From positions 1-64,000 of the forward strand of contig NZ_AP021889.1 of assembly GCF_011398355.1 (NCBI RefSeq): a stretch of 64,000 nt of DNA, given 5' to 3'. Positions 4,793 to 53,533 of the stretch are shown here, one piece after another (position 1 is the first letter of the stretch; each line of letters starts with the position of its first letter). The notes below the pieces were generated by a model that was not told where the DNA came from, did not search any database, and saw nothing but the letters and a program-made list of their open reading frames with translations. Source of the DNA: Thiosulfatimonas sediminis. Its GTDB lineage: Bacteria > Pseudomonadota > Gammaproteobacteria > Thiomicrospirales > Thiomicrospiraceae. A program made the position numbers and the translations under genes.

Positions 4793-4860
4793 AGCACTCA
4801 AAAAGGCACTGCAAAATAGCCCCCTTACCGCTATACTTAAGAACAATACGACTAAGACGT

Positions 4861-5030
4861 CACAGAATAAGCCCAGATGGCTTCAGGCACAGAACAATTT
4901 GGCCGGGCAAGGCGTTTGTTTGCAGTCATGTCTAAAGAGGACAAAAACAAGCAACACAGTGCAGTCGAATTGTTCAAAGCCTCCACAGGCGAGGCTTGCT
5001 GAAGTCAATTGGGACCAATCCAGTGTCTCT
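4861..5030 (+). repeat. Interspersed intergenic repeat, copy A
   Basis: Non-coding. This 170-bp stretch lies between recF and the DUF4870 gene. It starts CACAGAATAAG and ends CAGTGTCTCT. It contains a perfect 7-bp hairpin, AAGCCTC (4978-4984) with GAGGCTT (4990 onward), then GCTGAAGTCAATTGGGAC. By eye it is homologous to copies at 21830-22083, 50556-50657 and 53366-53498. Copy B matches its first about 70 columns nearly without gaps (roughly 65-70% identical), and 27 of its last 33 bases. An open frame at 4899-5207 crosses it but looks spurious. Confidence 0.65.
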
Positions 5031-5061
5031 AACCAATCGTTTTTATCTTTGAGGATTCAAT

Positions 5062-21633: not shown

Positions 21634-22370
21634 TGTCGACATCTCCTTGCAAAAAATTGAGTAATAATCTCGTGAAACGGCTTATCACATTGCCTAATAG
21701 ACGTAAAAAAAGAAAGTGAATTTTTTTTTATCTTTTATAAAAATGATTTCAGATTTGTCTGTTGGGTAAACGAAAGAACGCAGAACGCACAATAGTGGTG
21801 CAAGTCCAACAACGCTCTTTGTTTAATTAAGAGGCACAGAATAATCCCCATTGACTGCCGCAAGGGATTGCAAAGCCTCAATTCCAGACTCCCCTCAAAG
21901 TAGATAGCAAAAGCAATGAATCAAAAGGTCAATAACAAAACCGCCTTGTAAGCCTTACCTGTAGGCGCTTTGAACCACATCGCAATGCTGCTTTCTAGTA
22001 TTGTCAAACCACGACATGACACTAAATAGCCACTTTGCTCAGCCAAATGGTTCTATAACTAAAGCCATTTAGATTTATTCTGCGCCGCCTAGGTTATACG
22101 CTGTTTTAGCAAAGACCATGCTAAACAATCGCAACACCGCAAAAATTCACTCGACTAAAACGCTATTGCGACATTTCGTATCCACCAAAGTAAATTAACT
22201 TATTGTTTTTATTATTAAAAAAATAATCGATTAAAAATAATTAAAAAAAATGATTTTTTTTGAAACTAAATCGTTACCTCATCGGTAGTACCTATTGAAA
22301 GCGCACAAAACTCGCTCATTCATTCTGCGGAATGATATGCAACTAACTTTGAAATTTAGGAAGCTACACA
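21634..22370. other. Long non-coding region between gnd and the DUF3455 gene
   Basis: No gene is seen in this 737-bp divergent region. It holds repeat copy D (21830-22083). On the right is a very AT-rich tract (22190-22270) with long A and T runs, probably the promoter region of the DUF3455 gene. A small hairpin CATTC-TGCG-GAATG (about 22320-22333) lies in its leader. An AT-rich stretch at 21700-21750 is a likely gnd promoter area. Confidence 0.5.
21830..22083 (-). repeat. Interspersed intergenic repeat, copy D (longest)
   Basis: Read on the minus strand it starts GCGCAGAATAAATCTAAATGG and carries the same ordered blocks as copy A: ATGGCTT-AG, AGAAC-ATTTGGC, GTCATGTC, TTCAAAGC with a 21-nt hairpin block (16 of 21 identical to A), then GTCAATGGGGAT and GTGCCTCT. 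It has about 95 extra bases before the last block. Its two ends are inverted repeats of each other (GCGCAGAATAAATC and GCACAGAATAATCC), so it looks like the most complete copy. No target duplication is obvious. Confidence 0.65.
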
Positions 22371-33463: not shown

Positions 33464-34846
33464 ATGAAAATGCCCTTTTCTAAAAAAGAGTATCACCTAG
33501 AATCGCCTTGGGAAAGGCCATTCACTAAAATCATAACGCCATTTGAATCTTTTTTGCATCATCAGATGACCACTGGTTTGATTCTGATTTTTATGACCAT
33601 TTTGGCGCTTTACCTAGCGAATAGTGCCGCTTATGCGGAAGCTTATCAGCACTTTTTTCATACTTATTTTGGTATGAGCTTTGGTGATGCTGAAGTCAAA
33701 TTAACACTGCACCACTGGATTAACGATGCGTTAATGGCGATTTTCTTCTTCCTTGTCGGTTTAGAAATTAAGCGCGAAATGATGGTGGGTGAATTATCCG
33801 ATCCGAAAAACGCGATTCTGCCGATTGGTGCTGCGGTTGGCGGAATGGTCTTCCCTGCGCTGTTTTACGTCTATTTCACTTACGGTACCGAAGCAGTCAA
33901 TGGTTGGGGTATCCCAATGGCAACGGATATTGCGTTTGCTATTAGTGCCTTGATGATTTTGGGTAAACGCGTTCCGCCAGCGCTGGTAACGTTCTTAGTT
34001 GCTTTGGCTATTGTCGATGATTTGGGTGCAGTCACCGTTATTGCCCTCTTTTACACTGCAGATCTGAATTTATTTGCTTTAGGTACAGCATTTGCGCTTT
34101 TCGGTTTGCTATTGGCATTTAATCGTTTTGGTATCCACCGTGTTTTACCTTATGCGATTGTTGGTATTTTGATGTGGGCGGCAATGCTTTCATCTGGTGT
34201 ACACGCAACGATTGCAGGTATTTTGACTGCTTTAGCGATTCCTGCGCGTCCAAAATTTAATCCACACTTTTTCAGTGACCATATGGATGATTTAACCGAG
34301 CAATACAAAAAACATGACAAAAAAGATGAAAATTATATGTTGTGTGAAAACCGCGAAGGGATTTTAGCGGAAATGGAAACCAGCATTAAGCGCGTACAAC
34401 CACCGCTTAACCGTTTAGAACATGGTTTGCATTTACCTGTCGGTATTTTAATTATTCCGATTTTTGCTTTAGCGAATGCCGGTGTTGCCATCAATTGGTC
34501 AGAAATGGATACCTTATTGATTGAGCCAGTTGCTGCTGGTGTTATCAGTGGTTTGGTACTCGGTAAGTTAATTGGTATTTTTGGCGTCGCGTGGTTAATG
34601 ATTAAATTTGGAATTGCCCGTCTGCCATCCGGTTCGAGTATGAGTCAACTATTTGGTACCGCTTTCTTAGGTGGAATTGGTTTTACCATGTCGATTTTCA
34701 TTGCTGAACTGGCTTGGGTTGATCCAGGGATTATGTTAGTTGAAGCCAAAACCGGTATTTTATTTGCGTCTGTTATCGCTGCGGTAATTGGTCTAACTTG
34801 GTTACGTTTTATTGCTAAGCCAGCCCCGGATTATAAACCGGAATAA
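33464..34846 (+). CDS. nhaA: Na+/H+ antiporter NhaA
   Basis: This inner-membrane antiporter exports sodium in exchange for protons. The 460-residue protein has the NhaA core: LHHWINDALMAIFFFLVGLEIKREMMVGELSDPKNAILPIGAAVGGM, the paired aspartates of helix 5 in VALAIVDDLGAV, the conserved GWGIPMATDIAFA, and the late LGGIGFTMSIFIAELAW. It is longer than the E. coli protein (388) because of an extended N-terminus and an insert (about 255-320) that is charged and hydrophilic. It is separate from the Mrp antiporter at 57.5-63.5 kb. A strong terminator follows. Confidence 0.95.
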   Translation: MKMPFSKKEYHLESPWERPFTKIITPFESFLHHQMTTGLILIFMTILALYLANSAAYAEAYQHFFHTYFGMSFGDAEVKLTLHHWINDALMAIFFFLVGLEIKREMMVGELSDPKNAILPIGAAVGGMVFPALFYVYFTYGTEAVNGWGIPMATDIAFAISALMILGKRVPPALVTFLVALAIVDDLGAVTVIALFYTADLNLFALGTAFALFGLLLAFNRFGIHRVLPYAIVGILMWAAMLSSGVHATIAGILTALAIPARPKFNPHFFSDHMDDLTEQYKKHDKKDENYMLCENREGILAEMETSIKRVQPPLNRLEHGLHLPVGILIIPIFALANAGVAINWSEMDTLLIEPVAAGVISGLVLGKLIGIFGVAWLMIKFGIARLPSGSSMSQLFGTAFLGGIGFTMSIFIAELAWVDPGIMLVEAKTGILFASVIAAVIGLTWLRFIAKPAPDYKPE

Positions 34847-34862
34847 GTTCGCTTTTTAAGTG

Positions 34863-34909
34863 CCATAAAAAACCCGCTTAGGTTCTTAGCTAAGCGGGTT
34901 TTTTTATGG
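34863..34909 (+). terminator. Terminator after nhaA
   Basis: ACCCGCTTAG pairs with CTAAGCGGGT, extended outward by A and T runs (arms 34863-34881 and 34890-34909), with seven T after the GC core. Confidence 0.92.
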
Positions 34910-35018
34910 TTAAACCAAATTTTACGGTCCATAAGCTTTTGCGAGGTATTACAAATCACTACCTTACTCAGTTAAATTCTTATATTTTTGAAATCAATTG
35001 AGTTTATTTTGCGTATTT

Positions 35019-35804
35019 TTAGTCAAAATTAAAGTTATCTAATGCTGGAATTGGCGGTTTGCCATTGTAAAGCTCACCCATTCGCAACTGAATATAGCTC
35101 TCACGCGCAAGCTCATAGGCCCCTACTTGTTCAATTAGACCATCAAGTAACGGACTTACTTTGGTATAGGAAACGAAGCCTGAAGCAGCAAATACGGAGG
35201 TGCGTTGTTCATCAGATAAATCGACTTGTTGATAAAATTCCAAAGGATCTGCAATACTTTGTGCACTATTTCCTAAAAAACCTCGTGTTGTTGTTGGCCC
35301 CAACAGCGGCAATACTAAATAATTAGATTCTGGCCAAATCCCCCATACAAACAAAGTTTGTCCAAAATCTTCGTTTTTAGAAGCCAATCCCATTTCAGTA
35401 GCAATATCTAAGATGCCAAAAATTCCTAGGGTACTGTTAAAAGCAAAACGCATCAGACCAGTTAACCCCCCTTCAACGTCACCTTGTAAAAAACTATTTA
35501 ACATCGAAAAAGGTTCATTCAAATTATTCAAAAAATTTTCTACACCCAATCTGGCCGGGCGAGGAATTTCGCGATAAGCATTACTTAACGGTCGTCCAAC
35601 ACTGTCATGGAAAGCAAGATTAAAGGCGAACATCTCGCGATTGAAGTTAGCATAGGGATCTGTTTTGCTAATGGCTTCGTTGTTAACGATTTTGTTATCA
35701 CTAGCCTTAACAGTGACATCGTGAAACAAGTAGTCGTACTCATTTGCATAGGATTTTGACTGCAAAAACATTAAAAACGCGAATAAAAATAGTATTTTTT
35801 TCAT
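35019..35804 (-). CDS. MlaA/VacJ-family protein without lipobox
   Basis: MlaA removes phospholipids from the outer leaflet of the outer membrane. The 261-residue protein matches the family: DPYANFNREMFAFNLAFHDSVGRPLSNAYREI, FLNNLNEPFSMLNSFLQGD, the GEDFGQTLFVWGI-like block (NEDFGQTLFVWGIWPESNYLVLPLLGPTT) and a C-terminal R-SY-QLR segment. Unlike typical MlaA it has no lipobox cysteine; the signal peptide MKKILFLFAFLMFLQSKSYA should be cut by ordinary signal peptidase. An earlier start at 35825 overlaps the regulator gene; the ATG at 35804 is preferred. It is not with other mla genes but directly follows an OxyR-like gene. Confidence 0.85.
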   Translation of the reverse strand: MKKILFLFAFLMFLQSKSYANEYDYLFHDVTVKASDNKIVNNEAISKTDPYANFNREMFAFNLAFHDSVGRPLSNAYREIPRPARLGVENFLNNLNEPFSMLNSFLQGDVEGGLTGLMRFAFNSTLGIFGILDIATEMGLASKNEDFGQTLFVWGIWPESNYLVLPLLGPTTTRGFLGNSAQSIADPLEFYQQVDLSDEQRTSVFAASGFVSYTKVSPLLDGLIEQVGAYELARESYIQLRMGELYNGKPPIPALDNFNFD

Positions 35805-35814
35805 TTTTTTAGAC

Positions 35815-36744
35815 TTAATTATCAATCGGAATAGTGCAAGGAATATTAATATTTTTAATAACGTTTTTTAAAACTTTTAATACTTCAGTGCGTGGAAAAG
35901 TTTTTCGCCAAGCCAAAGCAACCACTCTATTCGCATGGTCTTTATGGGCTAGTTCACGTATTTCAAATAAATCATTATCCCGCTCAGAAAGGGAAGTGCA
36001 TGGGAAAATCGAGATCCCTGCGCCTGATGCAACCATATATCGAATCGTTTCTAATGAACTGCCTTCAAAGGTCTTTTGTAGACGATCGCTTTGATAGTTC
36101 ATATGCAACAAGTTTGGGTAGGTTTCAACGACTTGATCACGGAAACAATGTCCAGCCCCCAATAACAATACGGTTTCATCTTTAATTTGGTTTAAAGAAA
36201 TTTTGCCATCCTTGCCTGCCAAATTATGCTTTTTAGGAATAATTACCTTAAAAGGCTCTTGATAAAGCGCCATTGTTTCGATGTTAGGCTCTTGAAATGG
36301 CAAAGAAATTATCGCTACATCTAAATCTCCCGATTGCAATTTTTCTGCAAGGATGTGTGTGTAATTTTCTTCAATAATCAACGGAATATTGGCTGCTTGT
36401 TTGCTAAATTCAGGGATAAATTGCGGCAGCAAATAGGGTGCTACCGTGTAAATAGCTCCGATTTTCAATTGTGATGACAAATCACCTTGTGATTCTAACG
36501 CAATCGTTTTTATGTCATGGGTGCGTTCAAGAATCTGTTCTGCAAGAGCAATGACTTTTTTGCCTATTGGGGTAACGATCACATCTTGCTTACGTCGTTC
36601 AAATAAGATAATTCCTAATTCTTCTTCCAGTTTTTTAACCGCGACACTCAAAGTGGGCTGACTAACAAAGCAAGTTTCTGATGCTTTGCGAAAATGTTTT
36701 TCTTTAGCCACGGCAATAATGTATTTCAGTTCACTTAAAGTCAT
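35815..36744 (-). CDS. OxyR-like LysR-family regulator
   Basis: The 309-residue protein has an N-terminal LysR helix-turn-helix (HFRKASETCFVSQPTLSVAVKKLEEELGIILFERR) and a substrate domain closest to OxyR. The peroxidatic cysteine is kept in GHCFRDQ (C200, equivalent to E. coli Cys199), but the resolving Cys208 position is Tyr209. Other cysteines are C25, C249 and C303. Peroxide sensing may thus differ from the E. coli disulfide switch. It probably shares a transcript with the MlaA-like gene 10 bp downstream. The upstream intergenic region has a dyad AGTAAC/GTTACT (about 36785-36802) that could be its operator. Confidence 0.88.
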   Translation of the reverse strand: MTLSELKYIIAVAKEKHFRKASETCFVSQPTLSVAVKKLEEELGIILFERRKQDVIVTPIGKKVIALAEQILERTHDIKTIALESQGDLSSQLKIGAIYTVAPYLLPQFIPEFSKQAANIPLIIEENYTHILAEKLQSGDLDVAIISLPFQEPNIETMALYQEPFKVIIPKKHNLAGKDGKISLNQIKDETVLLLGAGHCFRDQVVETYPNLLHMNYQSDRLQKTFEGSSLETIRYMVASGAGISIFPCTSLSERDNDLFEIRELAHKDHANRVVALAWRKTFPRTEVLKVLKNVIKNINIPCTIPIDN

Positions 36745-50555: not shown

Positions 50556-50657
50556 CGTTCCGATAGACCGCGAATTGACTGCAAACAGCCCACCTTGGTT
50601 AGCTAAGCTCTTCTGTTTCTTTTGTGCCTAAAGCCATTTGGATTTGTTTTCCTTAGA
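50556..50657 (-). repeat. Interspersed intergenic repeat, copy C
   Basis: On the minus strand it reads AAAACAAATCCAAATGGCTTTAGGCAC..., CAAGGTGGGCTGTTTGCAGTCAATTC, matching copy D at its start (18 of 24) and copy A in the middle (TTTGCAGTCA). It fills the gap between the tsaC end and the protease gene end, 7 bp after the protease stop. It lacks the internal hairpin block, so it is a short copy. Confidence 0.55.
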
Positions 50658-53356: not shown

Positions 53357-53365
53357 TTAGAGTGA

Positions 53366-53498
53366 CGCAGAATAAGGTTAATTGACTTTAGGCAGAGAAT
53401 AATTGGATTGCAGCAAAGCGGCTATTTGTCGTTATGTCGATACTTGCCAAAAACAGGCAATATCGCGCTGAAGTCAATCGGGACTGGTCTTGTGTCTC
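53366..53498 (+). repeat. Interspersed intergenic repeat, copy B
   Basis: This starts CGCAGAATAAG, includes CTTTAGGCAGAGAATAATTGG, TTATGTC and a hairpin (CGATA-C-TTGCC and GGCAATATCG, 53438-53464), then GCTGAAGTCAATCGGGAC and TGTGTCTCT. Its ends form an inverted repeat (AATTGACTTTAGGC at the left; GATTGACTTCAGC in the reverse complement of the right). It is about 37 bp shorter than copy A in the middle. It lies between hemF and the Fur-like sites of the iron operon. Confidence 0.65.
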
Positions 53499-53533
53499 TT
53501 CAGCAGTGTCAAAGCCAGATAATTAATAAAAAC

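Follow-up and report, generated by a model that had tools for sequence, protein, structure and literature searches.

Among the intergenic repeats described in bacteria, ERIC, NEMIS, RUP, bcr1 and Nezha are named as MITEs in PMC3733652, and the TIR repeats of TIRtrons and TIRYT genes are described in the same paper. Compensatory changes of the kind discussed below are also reported for REPINs (PMC3116915). The repeat reported here was encountered in a window (the whole stretch of DNA analysed, 64,000 nucleotides of Thiosulfatimonas sediminis contig NZ_AP021889.1) and is a real, wide-ranging structured mobile element, undescribed as far as our searches extended. Rfam searches of the window and ten loci returned no match at gathering scores, and at E<=0.5 nine loci yielded HCV_SL588 alone (E 0.18), a chance match. 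Among the papers listed by our searches of an open-licence library, no title or abstract opening describes such an element, most subscription work lying outside the scope of those searches.

In its complete form the element is about 270 bp long and is composed, in order, of a TIR, a hairpin unit (D1), a short hairpin (D2), a second unit (D3) and a TIR. Two models were used to find it. R1 is a sequence-only model built on 32 copies from the window's own genome (alignment A2), these being what was left of 49 located copies after score and end criteria had retained 35 and three with doubtful right ends had been dropped. R2 is a superfamily covariance model of 270 positions, whose 26 training elements include four from the window's genome and none from the window itself.

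A sequence-only reading of the window had proposed a family of four copies, A to D, of which A, B and D were recovered by R2, whilst C proved marginal. Copy A (4853-5032, + strand; R2 E 3.3e-28, R1 E 2.5e-35), which is aligned in A2, retains both TIRs, D1 and D2 and is missing most of D3. Reading of the sequence places its left TIR, beginning at TA, at 4853-4874 and its right TIR at 5001-5029, both on the + strand. The minimum free energy (MFE) fold and the alignment place D1 at 4892-4975 (+), with an outer stem pairing 4892-4904 with 4964-4975 and a tip near 4924-4932, and the sequence together with the MFE fold places the D2 hairpin AAGCCTC..GAGGCTT at 4977-4997 (+). Copy B (21827-22092, - strand; R2 E 2.7e-21, R1 E 2.9e-30) is near full-length, with the order TIR-D1-D2-D3-TIR, and copy D (53362-53499, + strand; R1 E 3.8e-24) is a short form, TIR-D1-TIR, of which R2 covers 53412-53467 (E 7.1e-9). 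Copy C (50560-50649, - strand) is a weak fragment matched by R1 alone (E 1.4e-6 in the genome search), with no R2 match at E<=1. Another weak fragment, absent from the earlier reading, lies at 34939-35017 on the - strand, where R1 gave E 7.1e-6 when the genome was searched and R2 matched nothing. Separately, the window carries at 34855-34914 a strong palindrome with a run of T after it, resembling a two-way transcription terminator, between ORFs at 33464-34846 (+) and 35019-35825 (-).

That the ends of the copies are inverted repeats of each other, and that the copies differ in length through internal loss, was confirmed. The boundaries first drawn needed revision, as the true ends lie further out and mostly at TA dinucleotides (copy A starts at 4853, and copy B at 22090-22092). 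When copies were folded singly against dinucleotide shuffles, z was -4.18 for A, -2.44 for B (4 of 200 shuffles being as good) and -4.12 for D.

The source genome was searched as one contig of 2,722,826 bases (2.72 Mb). With copy A as the query, 43 matches were obtained at E<=10; an eye-made consensus gave at least 67 at E<=0.1 (40 of 115 candidates scored), and R1 at least 122 at the same threshold (150 of 1002 candidates scored, some places being matched on both strands). Counting each place once at E<1e-6, R1 found about 66 places at least. The matches were thus far above chance and not restricted to four weak ones, which supports the proposal of an unrecognised, genome-wide family of a MITE-like or ERIC-like kind whose ends are inverted and whose inner pairing is conserved; neither of the two outcomes named beforehand as refuting it was seen. 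With a later model, one more full-length copy, belonging to a second subfamily, was located at 1916671-1916978 (E 2.7e-55), and the same internal stretch is missing from many of the genome's copies.

RNAalifold found no consensus pair in the 32 own-genome copies taken alone, as would be expected of fossils drifting after landing. The copies of this genome do look like fossils, in that they have diverged and often carry internal deletions, and the genome has, among the families searched, no IS bearing their TIR. PF01609 matched three places there; two contain stop codons and one (L187) is open, and none has the f1 TIR.

Intergenic placement, as first read from four copies, was upheld across the genome. 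None of the 41 copies that could be classified, from the 49 located, lay within an ORF of at least 80 aa, and with ORFs from a simple ORF caller, 21 lay between co-directional genes, 10 between convergent and 10 between divergent ones. Such positions bear on the idea that the repeat is a host-serving regulatory RNA or transcript-end structure, kept in place for the neighbouring genes. At the median, a copy is 30 nt away from a 3' gene end and 130 nt away from a 5' start, and the convergent gaps that hold 10 of the 41 make up 734 of the 7,263 intergenic bases in the window, yet avoidance of promoters would account equally well for the placement. Presence is moreover patchy, with R1 matching, at E<=0.001, 12 of 58 genomes, all of a single genus and among them that of the window, and neither TIRs with target repeats nor the worn copies of the window genome fit a structure maintained for the host. 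We regard a host-serving role as scarcely probable.

Most complete copies start and finish at TA, with TIRs of about 22-30 bp, and 72 of 78 elements measure 265-272 bp. The TIRs match at 16 or more of 22 bases in a set of 29 elements, and 90.0% of the TIR-stem cells are paired in A3, a MAFFT alignment whose 26 copies represent about ten genera (one row lacking its left end). The eye-made consensus adopts a single branched fold of -134.7 kcal/mol (z -11.4), comprising the TIR stem, D1, D2 and D3. The element has no transposase or conserved coding sequence of its own: the longest contained ORF has a median of 57 aa and a maximum of 85, and 48 of 78 elements have stops in all six frames.

The two units are homologous and face each other. 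A D1 HMM matched reverse-complemented D3 in 68 of 78 elements, 64 of them above 10 bits (median 26.4), against none above 10 bits, and a maximum of 4.5, for the controls of forward D3, shuffled D3 and reverse-complemented D1. The element is therefore an inverted pair of one hairpin unit. A one-unit form, of 165-167 bp inside IS5-like ends, occurs in genomes of another class, with one unit match in each of the five that were read. Two further variants were seen: in Thiomicrorhabdus marina, six loci form a subgroup of about 305-308 bp with an extra hairpin-like stretch in D2 (CTCGACTTACCCCTTCGGGCGTCGAG), and five loci (L210, L225, L228, L250 and L251) gave near-equal scores on both strands and are nearly perfect global palindromes.

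Inner segments that keep pairing despite base changes had already been claimed from the four window copies. Conserved pairing was borne out by the alignment of many genera, and only then did covariation become visible; the compensatory examples, in contrast, were mostly mis-registered, and the four copies by themselves show no covariation. For instance, AAGCCTC/GAGGCTT had been set against CGATA-TTGCC/GGCAATATCG, and these are two different helices, one at the foot of D2/D3 in copy A and the other near the D1 tip in the copy at 53366.

The consensus structure of A3 has 100 pairs in 12 helices. Paired cells amounted to 89.1%, against 66.1% (sd 0.6) in 500 shuffles, which keep column make-up and not relatedness and none of which reached 89.1%, and against at most 44.2% when the partner was slid by one to three columns, a comparison that favours the fold because it was scored on its source alignment. 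Changes on both sides were found at 80 of the 100 pairs, with a covariation score of 0.568 versus 0.182. The best kept columns lie largely in loops (CAAGGCG, ATGTCTAGACC, CAACRCAG, GTTGTT and CGCCTAG).

Wobble pairs were counted in a larger alignment, A4 (150 of 157 matches kept), in which each locus was represented by a single row (80 rows, 78 of them distinct). The TIRs show no strand preference (61 GU cells, 50 AC), whereas D1 has 179 GU and 10 AC, and inner D3 has 14 GU and 137 AC once one invariant U-G pair is excluded. Expressed as rates, GU is 6.9% in D1 against 2.8% in the TIRs, and AC 0.4% against 2.3%. Sign tests over columns gave p 4.9e-5 for D1 and p 0.0075 for D3, with the effect of kinship among elements reduced and not removed; the aligner favours GU, which may help the D1 result and works against that for D3. 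The picture was unchanged after removal of 14 of the training rows of R2, and A3 leans alike (D1, 44 GU to 14 AC; D3, 31 to 47 with the invariant U-G column counted). An AC cell becomes a wobble pair when read from the opposite strand, and D1 is therefore kept as a hairpin of the top strand and D3 as a hairpin of the bottom strand; the hairpins are strand-specific, each folding on a strand of its own. The excluded pair, in columns 306-360 of A4, is U-G on the top strand in 75 of 78 elements, which corresponds to A-C on the unit's sense strand, and is perhaps a fixed mismatch within a recognition site.

These data bear directly on whether the repeat is an ordinary MITE, with an interior that is a neutral by-product and a fold that is the trace of an old palindrome. 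Folding is common among bacterial MITEs (PMC3733652), and the copies of one genome alone yield no consensus fold. However, two-sided changes at four fifths of the pairs, kept loops, near-constant length and opposite wobble biases in D1 and D3 together require that the fold has been under selection in the active lineage, and we consider a neutral interior very improbable.

The interior extends well beyond the genus in which R1 found matches, its two hairpins retaining their fold in many proteobacteria. Other species of that genus hold sister copies with different TIRs and the same inner plan, and further TIR types carry the same interior in other genomes. A DNA pattern scan for the D1 tip returned 59 stretches where about 7 were expected by chance, from taxa including Thiomicrorhabdus, Hydrogenovibrio, Motiliproteus, Gynuella, Pontibacterium, Neptuniibacter, Microbulbifer, Shewanella, Thiotrichaceae and Pseudomonadales; 31 of the 59 were read in context, and one (L147) looks like a chance match. 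With R2, the element was found in at least 108 of 369 genomes of the class at E<=1e-4, representing 85 of 271 genera, and in at least 80 of 398 genomes of the phylum at E<=1e-6, 40 inside the class and 40 outside. These genome counts are lower bounds, as the range runs used stricter filters and scored four or five candidates per genome, and the E-values of R2 are rough owing to short calibration.

Two element queries found no match in phages. When plasmids were searched with four element queries, one query matched four records (two of Azotobacter, one of Pseudomonas aeruginosa and one of Halomonas), one gave a partial match and the others none; all four matches were confirmed by R2, with no listed feature beneath the match. 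The copy on the P. aeruginosa PA83 plasmid (L371:2999-3269) lies between an acyl-CoA dehydrogenase gene, whose stop codon is a few bases upstream, and a co-directional CoA-transferase gene that begins just after it. Another P. aeruginosa plasmid has the same gene pair and no element, the intergenic stretch being too different to align. In T. marina 6S2-11 (G013) and in genome G231, many copies lie at contig ends, which for T. marina points to recent, near-identical copies; the element probably breaks both assemblies, and copy numbers there are underestimated.

A candidate mover was found in T. marina, which carries two IS of about 1.19 kb with ends nearly matching those of the local element (TIR scores of 18.5 and 14.5 versus shuffled maxima of 10 and 11). 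Both transposases match NF033581, the IS5 family, with 358.7 and 340 bits against a cut-off of 140, and share approximately 70-73% identity with plasmid-borne IS5-like transposases. Eight further genomes with PF01609 loci gave, apart from the element itself, no TIR match better than the shuffled level, and PF01609 had no match in 8 of 16 element-bearing genomes. For one TIR type, searched in seven genomes, no IS with those ends was found, every matchable facing pair spanning 108-464 bp and single TIRs at contig ends falling outside that count; G231 alone has 62 TIRs of this type, and its reversed-pattern control gave zero. IS1182 (PF13751), which may be the partner of the TAGT type, matched in 6 of 20 genomes, and its transposases (L284-L293) occur in some genomes with TAGT-type elements. 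An origin from a unit inside an IS was rejected, none being found in 44 IS loci, with the sole exception of a whole element beside an IS in locus L279.

IS5 elements duplicate a 4-bp YTAR target. The 4-mers flanking the element on the left and right agreed more often than in shuffles in four sets (12 of 46, 10 of 20, 17 of 31 and 7 of 10), many combinations of length and offset having been tried, and a fifth set of 11 showed nothing. The third of these, the genus set of 31 elements, compares with 5.5 (sd 2.1) in shuffles, and the fourth, the own-genome copies with both ends, with 2.3 (sd 1.2). When the left 4-mer was non-palindromic, the right one was its direct repeat in 12 and its inverted repeat in 1 of 20 cases in the genus set, and in 3 and 0 of 4 for the own-genome copies; a wide set, in which targets are mostly palindromic, gave 2 direct and 3 inverted of 12. 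A search for empty sites matched none of 79 joined flanks to another collected locus across the junction. An origin of the IS630 type (TA target, as for Correia and RUP elements) was also set aside, the own genome having no DDE_3 and the 4-bp repeat standing out above the 2-bp one.

Inverted hairpins could also be recognised as single-stranded DNA and moved by a Y1 (HUH) transposase of the RAYT or TIRYT kind. The plan resembles that of REPINs, which have two inverted hairpins and are proposed to be mobilised by RAYTs (PMC3116915), and Y1_Tnp was present in 18 of 21 element-bearing genomes compared with 5 of 14 controls. Against a Y1 mover, however, stand the direct 4-bp repeats that flank elements in this genus and the positions of the Y1 genes, as R2 elements were near just 2 of 40 Y1 loci (within 2.5 kb on each side), about the chance expectation. 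GGGGWSAS flanks both sides of the gene in 8 of the 18 Y1 loci examined out of those 40, which marks the TIRYT type and is unlike the TIRs of the element, and GTAG is rarer than chance, occurring anywhere in the element in 25 of 78 cases versus 49.3 in shuffles. No Y1_Tnp match was obtained in the window genome, where the copies are, however, fossils. Movement by a Y1 transposase is accordingly rated as unlikely. The eight loci with GGGGWSAS on both sides come from several element-bearing genomes and are arranged as in TIRtrons.

The explanation that we hold to be probable is that the element is an IS5-type MITE, a non-autonomous DNA transposon, carrying a conserved inverted pair of strand-specific hairpins. 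It would move, or have moved, as double-stranded DNA, most likely by means of a DDE transposase of the IS5 type that works in trans on the TIRs, with nTAn as the target. Such a mover is well supported in this genus, whilst elsewhere we infer it, most TIR types there having no known partner. The inner units are kept by selection as single-stranded hairpins, as covariation and the wobble asymmetry show, each strand thereby carrying one hairpin in the sense orientation. The hairpin may then act as RNA in a transcript crossing the element in either direction, and might bind a widely conserved host factor, with lower cost or greater spread of the insertion as the result.

Alternatively, a DDE transposase would move the shell and the hairpins would act without Y1 on exposed DNA strands, one per strand, at the replication fork or during DNA uptake. 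A plan with one sense hairpin per strand fits DNA strands as well as transcripts, and the elements show no orientation bias relative to host genes. Between co-directional genes, own-genome dimers were D1-sense in 12 cases and antisense in 9, and monomers sense in 3 and antisense in 7 of the 10 co-directional cases among 20, so that no dependence on host transcription is seen. The orientation of monomers and own-genome dimers accordingly gives no support to an RNA read from host genes. The GU rate of D1, at more than twice that of the TIRs, is easier to explain in RNA, where GU pairs are stable, if turnover is equal in TIR and D1, and we judge a function in single-stranded DNA to be possible and on balance doubtful as an explanation of the whole. 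Within the preferred reading, an IS5-type MITE with a strand-specific hairpin pair, we lean slightly to RNA over single-stranded DNA, the two standing close to even, because GU cells are more frequent in D1 than one-sided mismatches are in the TIRs.

A broader interpretation, which we offer tentatively and would not expect to hold in full, is that the unit is a phylum-wide selfish hairpin 'cargo', single or as an inverted pair, riding in the inverted ends of different types of DNA transposon. A conserved host factor would recognise the unit as a signal in single-stranded form, most likely as RNA, and the whole would be a bacterial counterpart of SINEs, moved by DNA transposases without reverse transcription.

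If these readings are right, a structured mobile element present in at least 108 of 369 genomes of its class has had no Rfam entry and no description that we found, and its copies can now be located with R2. A transposon that is mobilised through its ends would be expected to have no need of what lies between them, and the retention of a folded, strand-specific interior across a phylum therefore poses a directly testable question.

Compared with known systems, the element is like bacterial MITEs, those of the IS5 family included, in being non-coding, shorter than 310 bp, bounded by TIRs, capable of foldback and mostly intergenic, and it is like IS5-family MITEs in its direct target repeats in this genus and in the T. 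marina IS5 partner with nearly the same ends. It is unlike them in its interior, two homologous hairpins conserved as an inverted pair, in which wobble is specific to the strand and the loops are kept, and in the occurrence of this interior with several TIR types across a phylum; we know of no MITE with such a pair. With Rfam families it shares a conserved, covarying secondary structure. REPINs and BIMEs resemble it in having two inverted hairpins, with one sense hairpin per strand, but the element also occurs in one-unit forms, and its units are about 85 nt long and lie inside TIRs, with no GTAG tag, away from Y1 genes and, in this genus, between direct 4-bp repeats. TIRtrons and TIRYT-linked repeats are likewise TIR-bearing families, and TIRYT-like genes are present in many of the element's genomes; their TIRs, however, carry GGGGWSAS and flank Y1 genes, and those of the element do neither in the loci seen. 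The element thus combines the behaviour of an IS5-type MITE in this genus with a REPIN-like plan, and differs from both by its conserved, strand-specific inverted hairpin pair.
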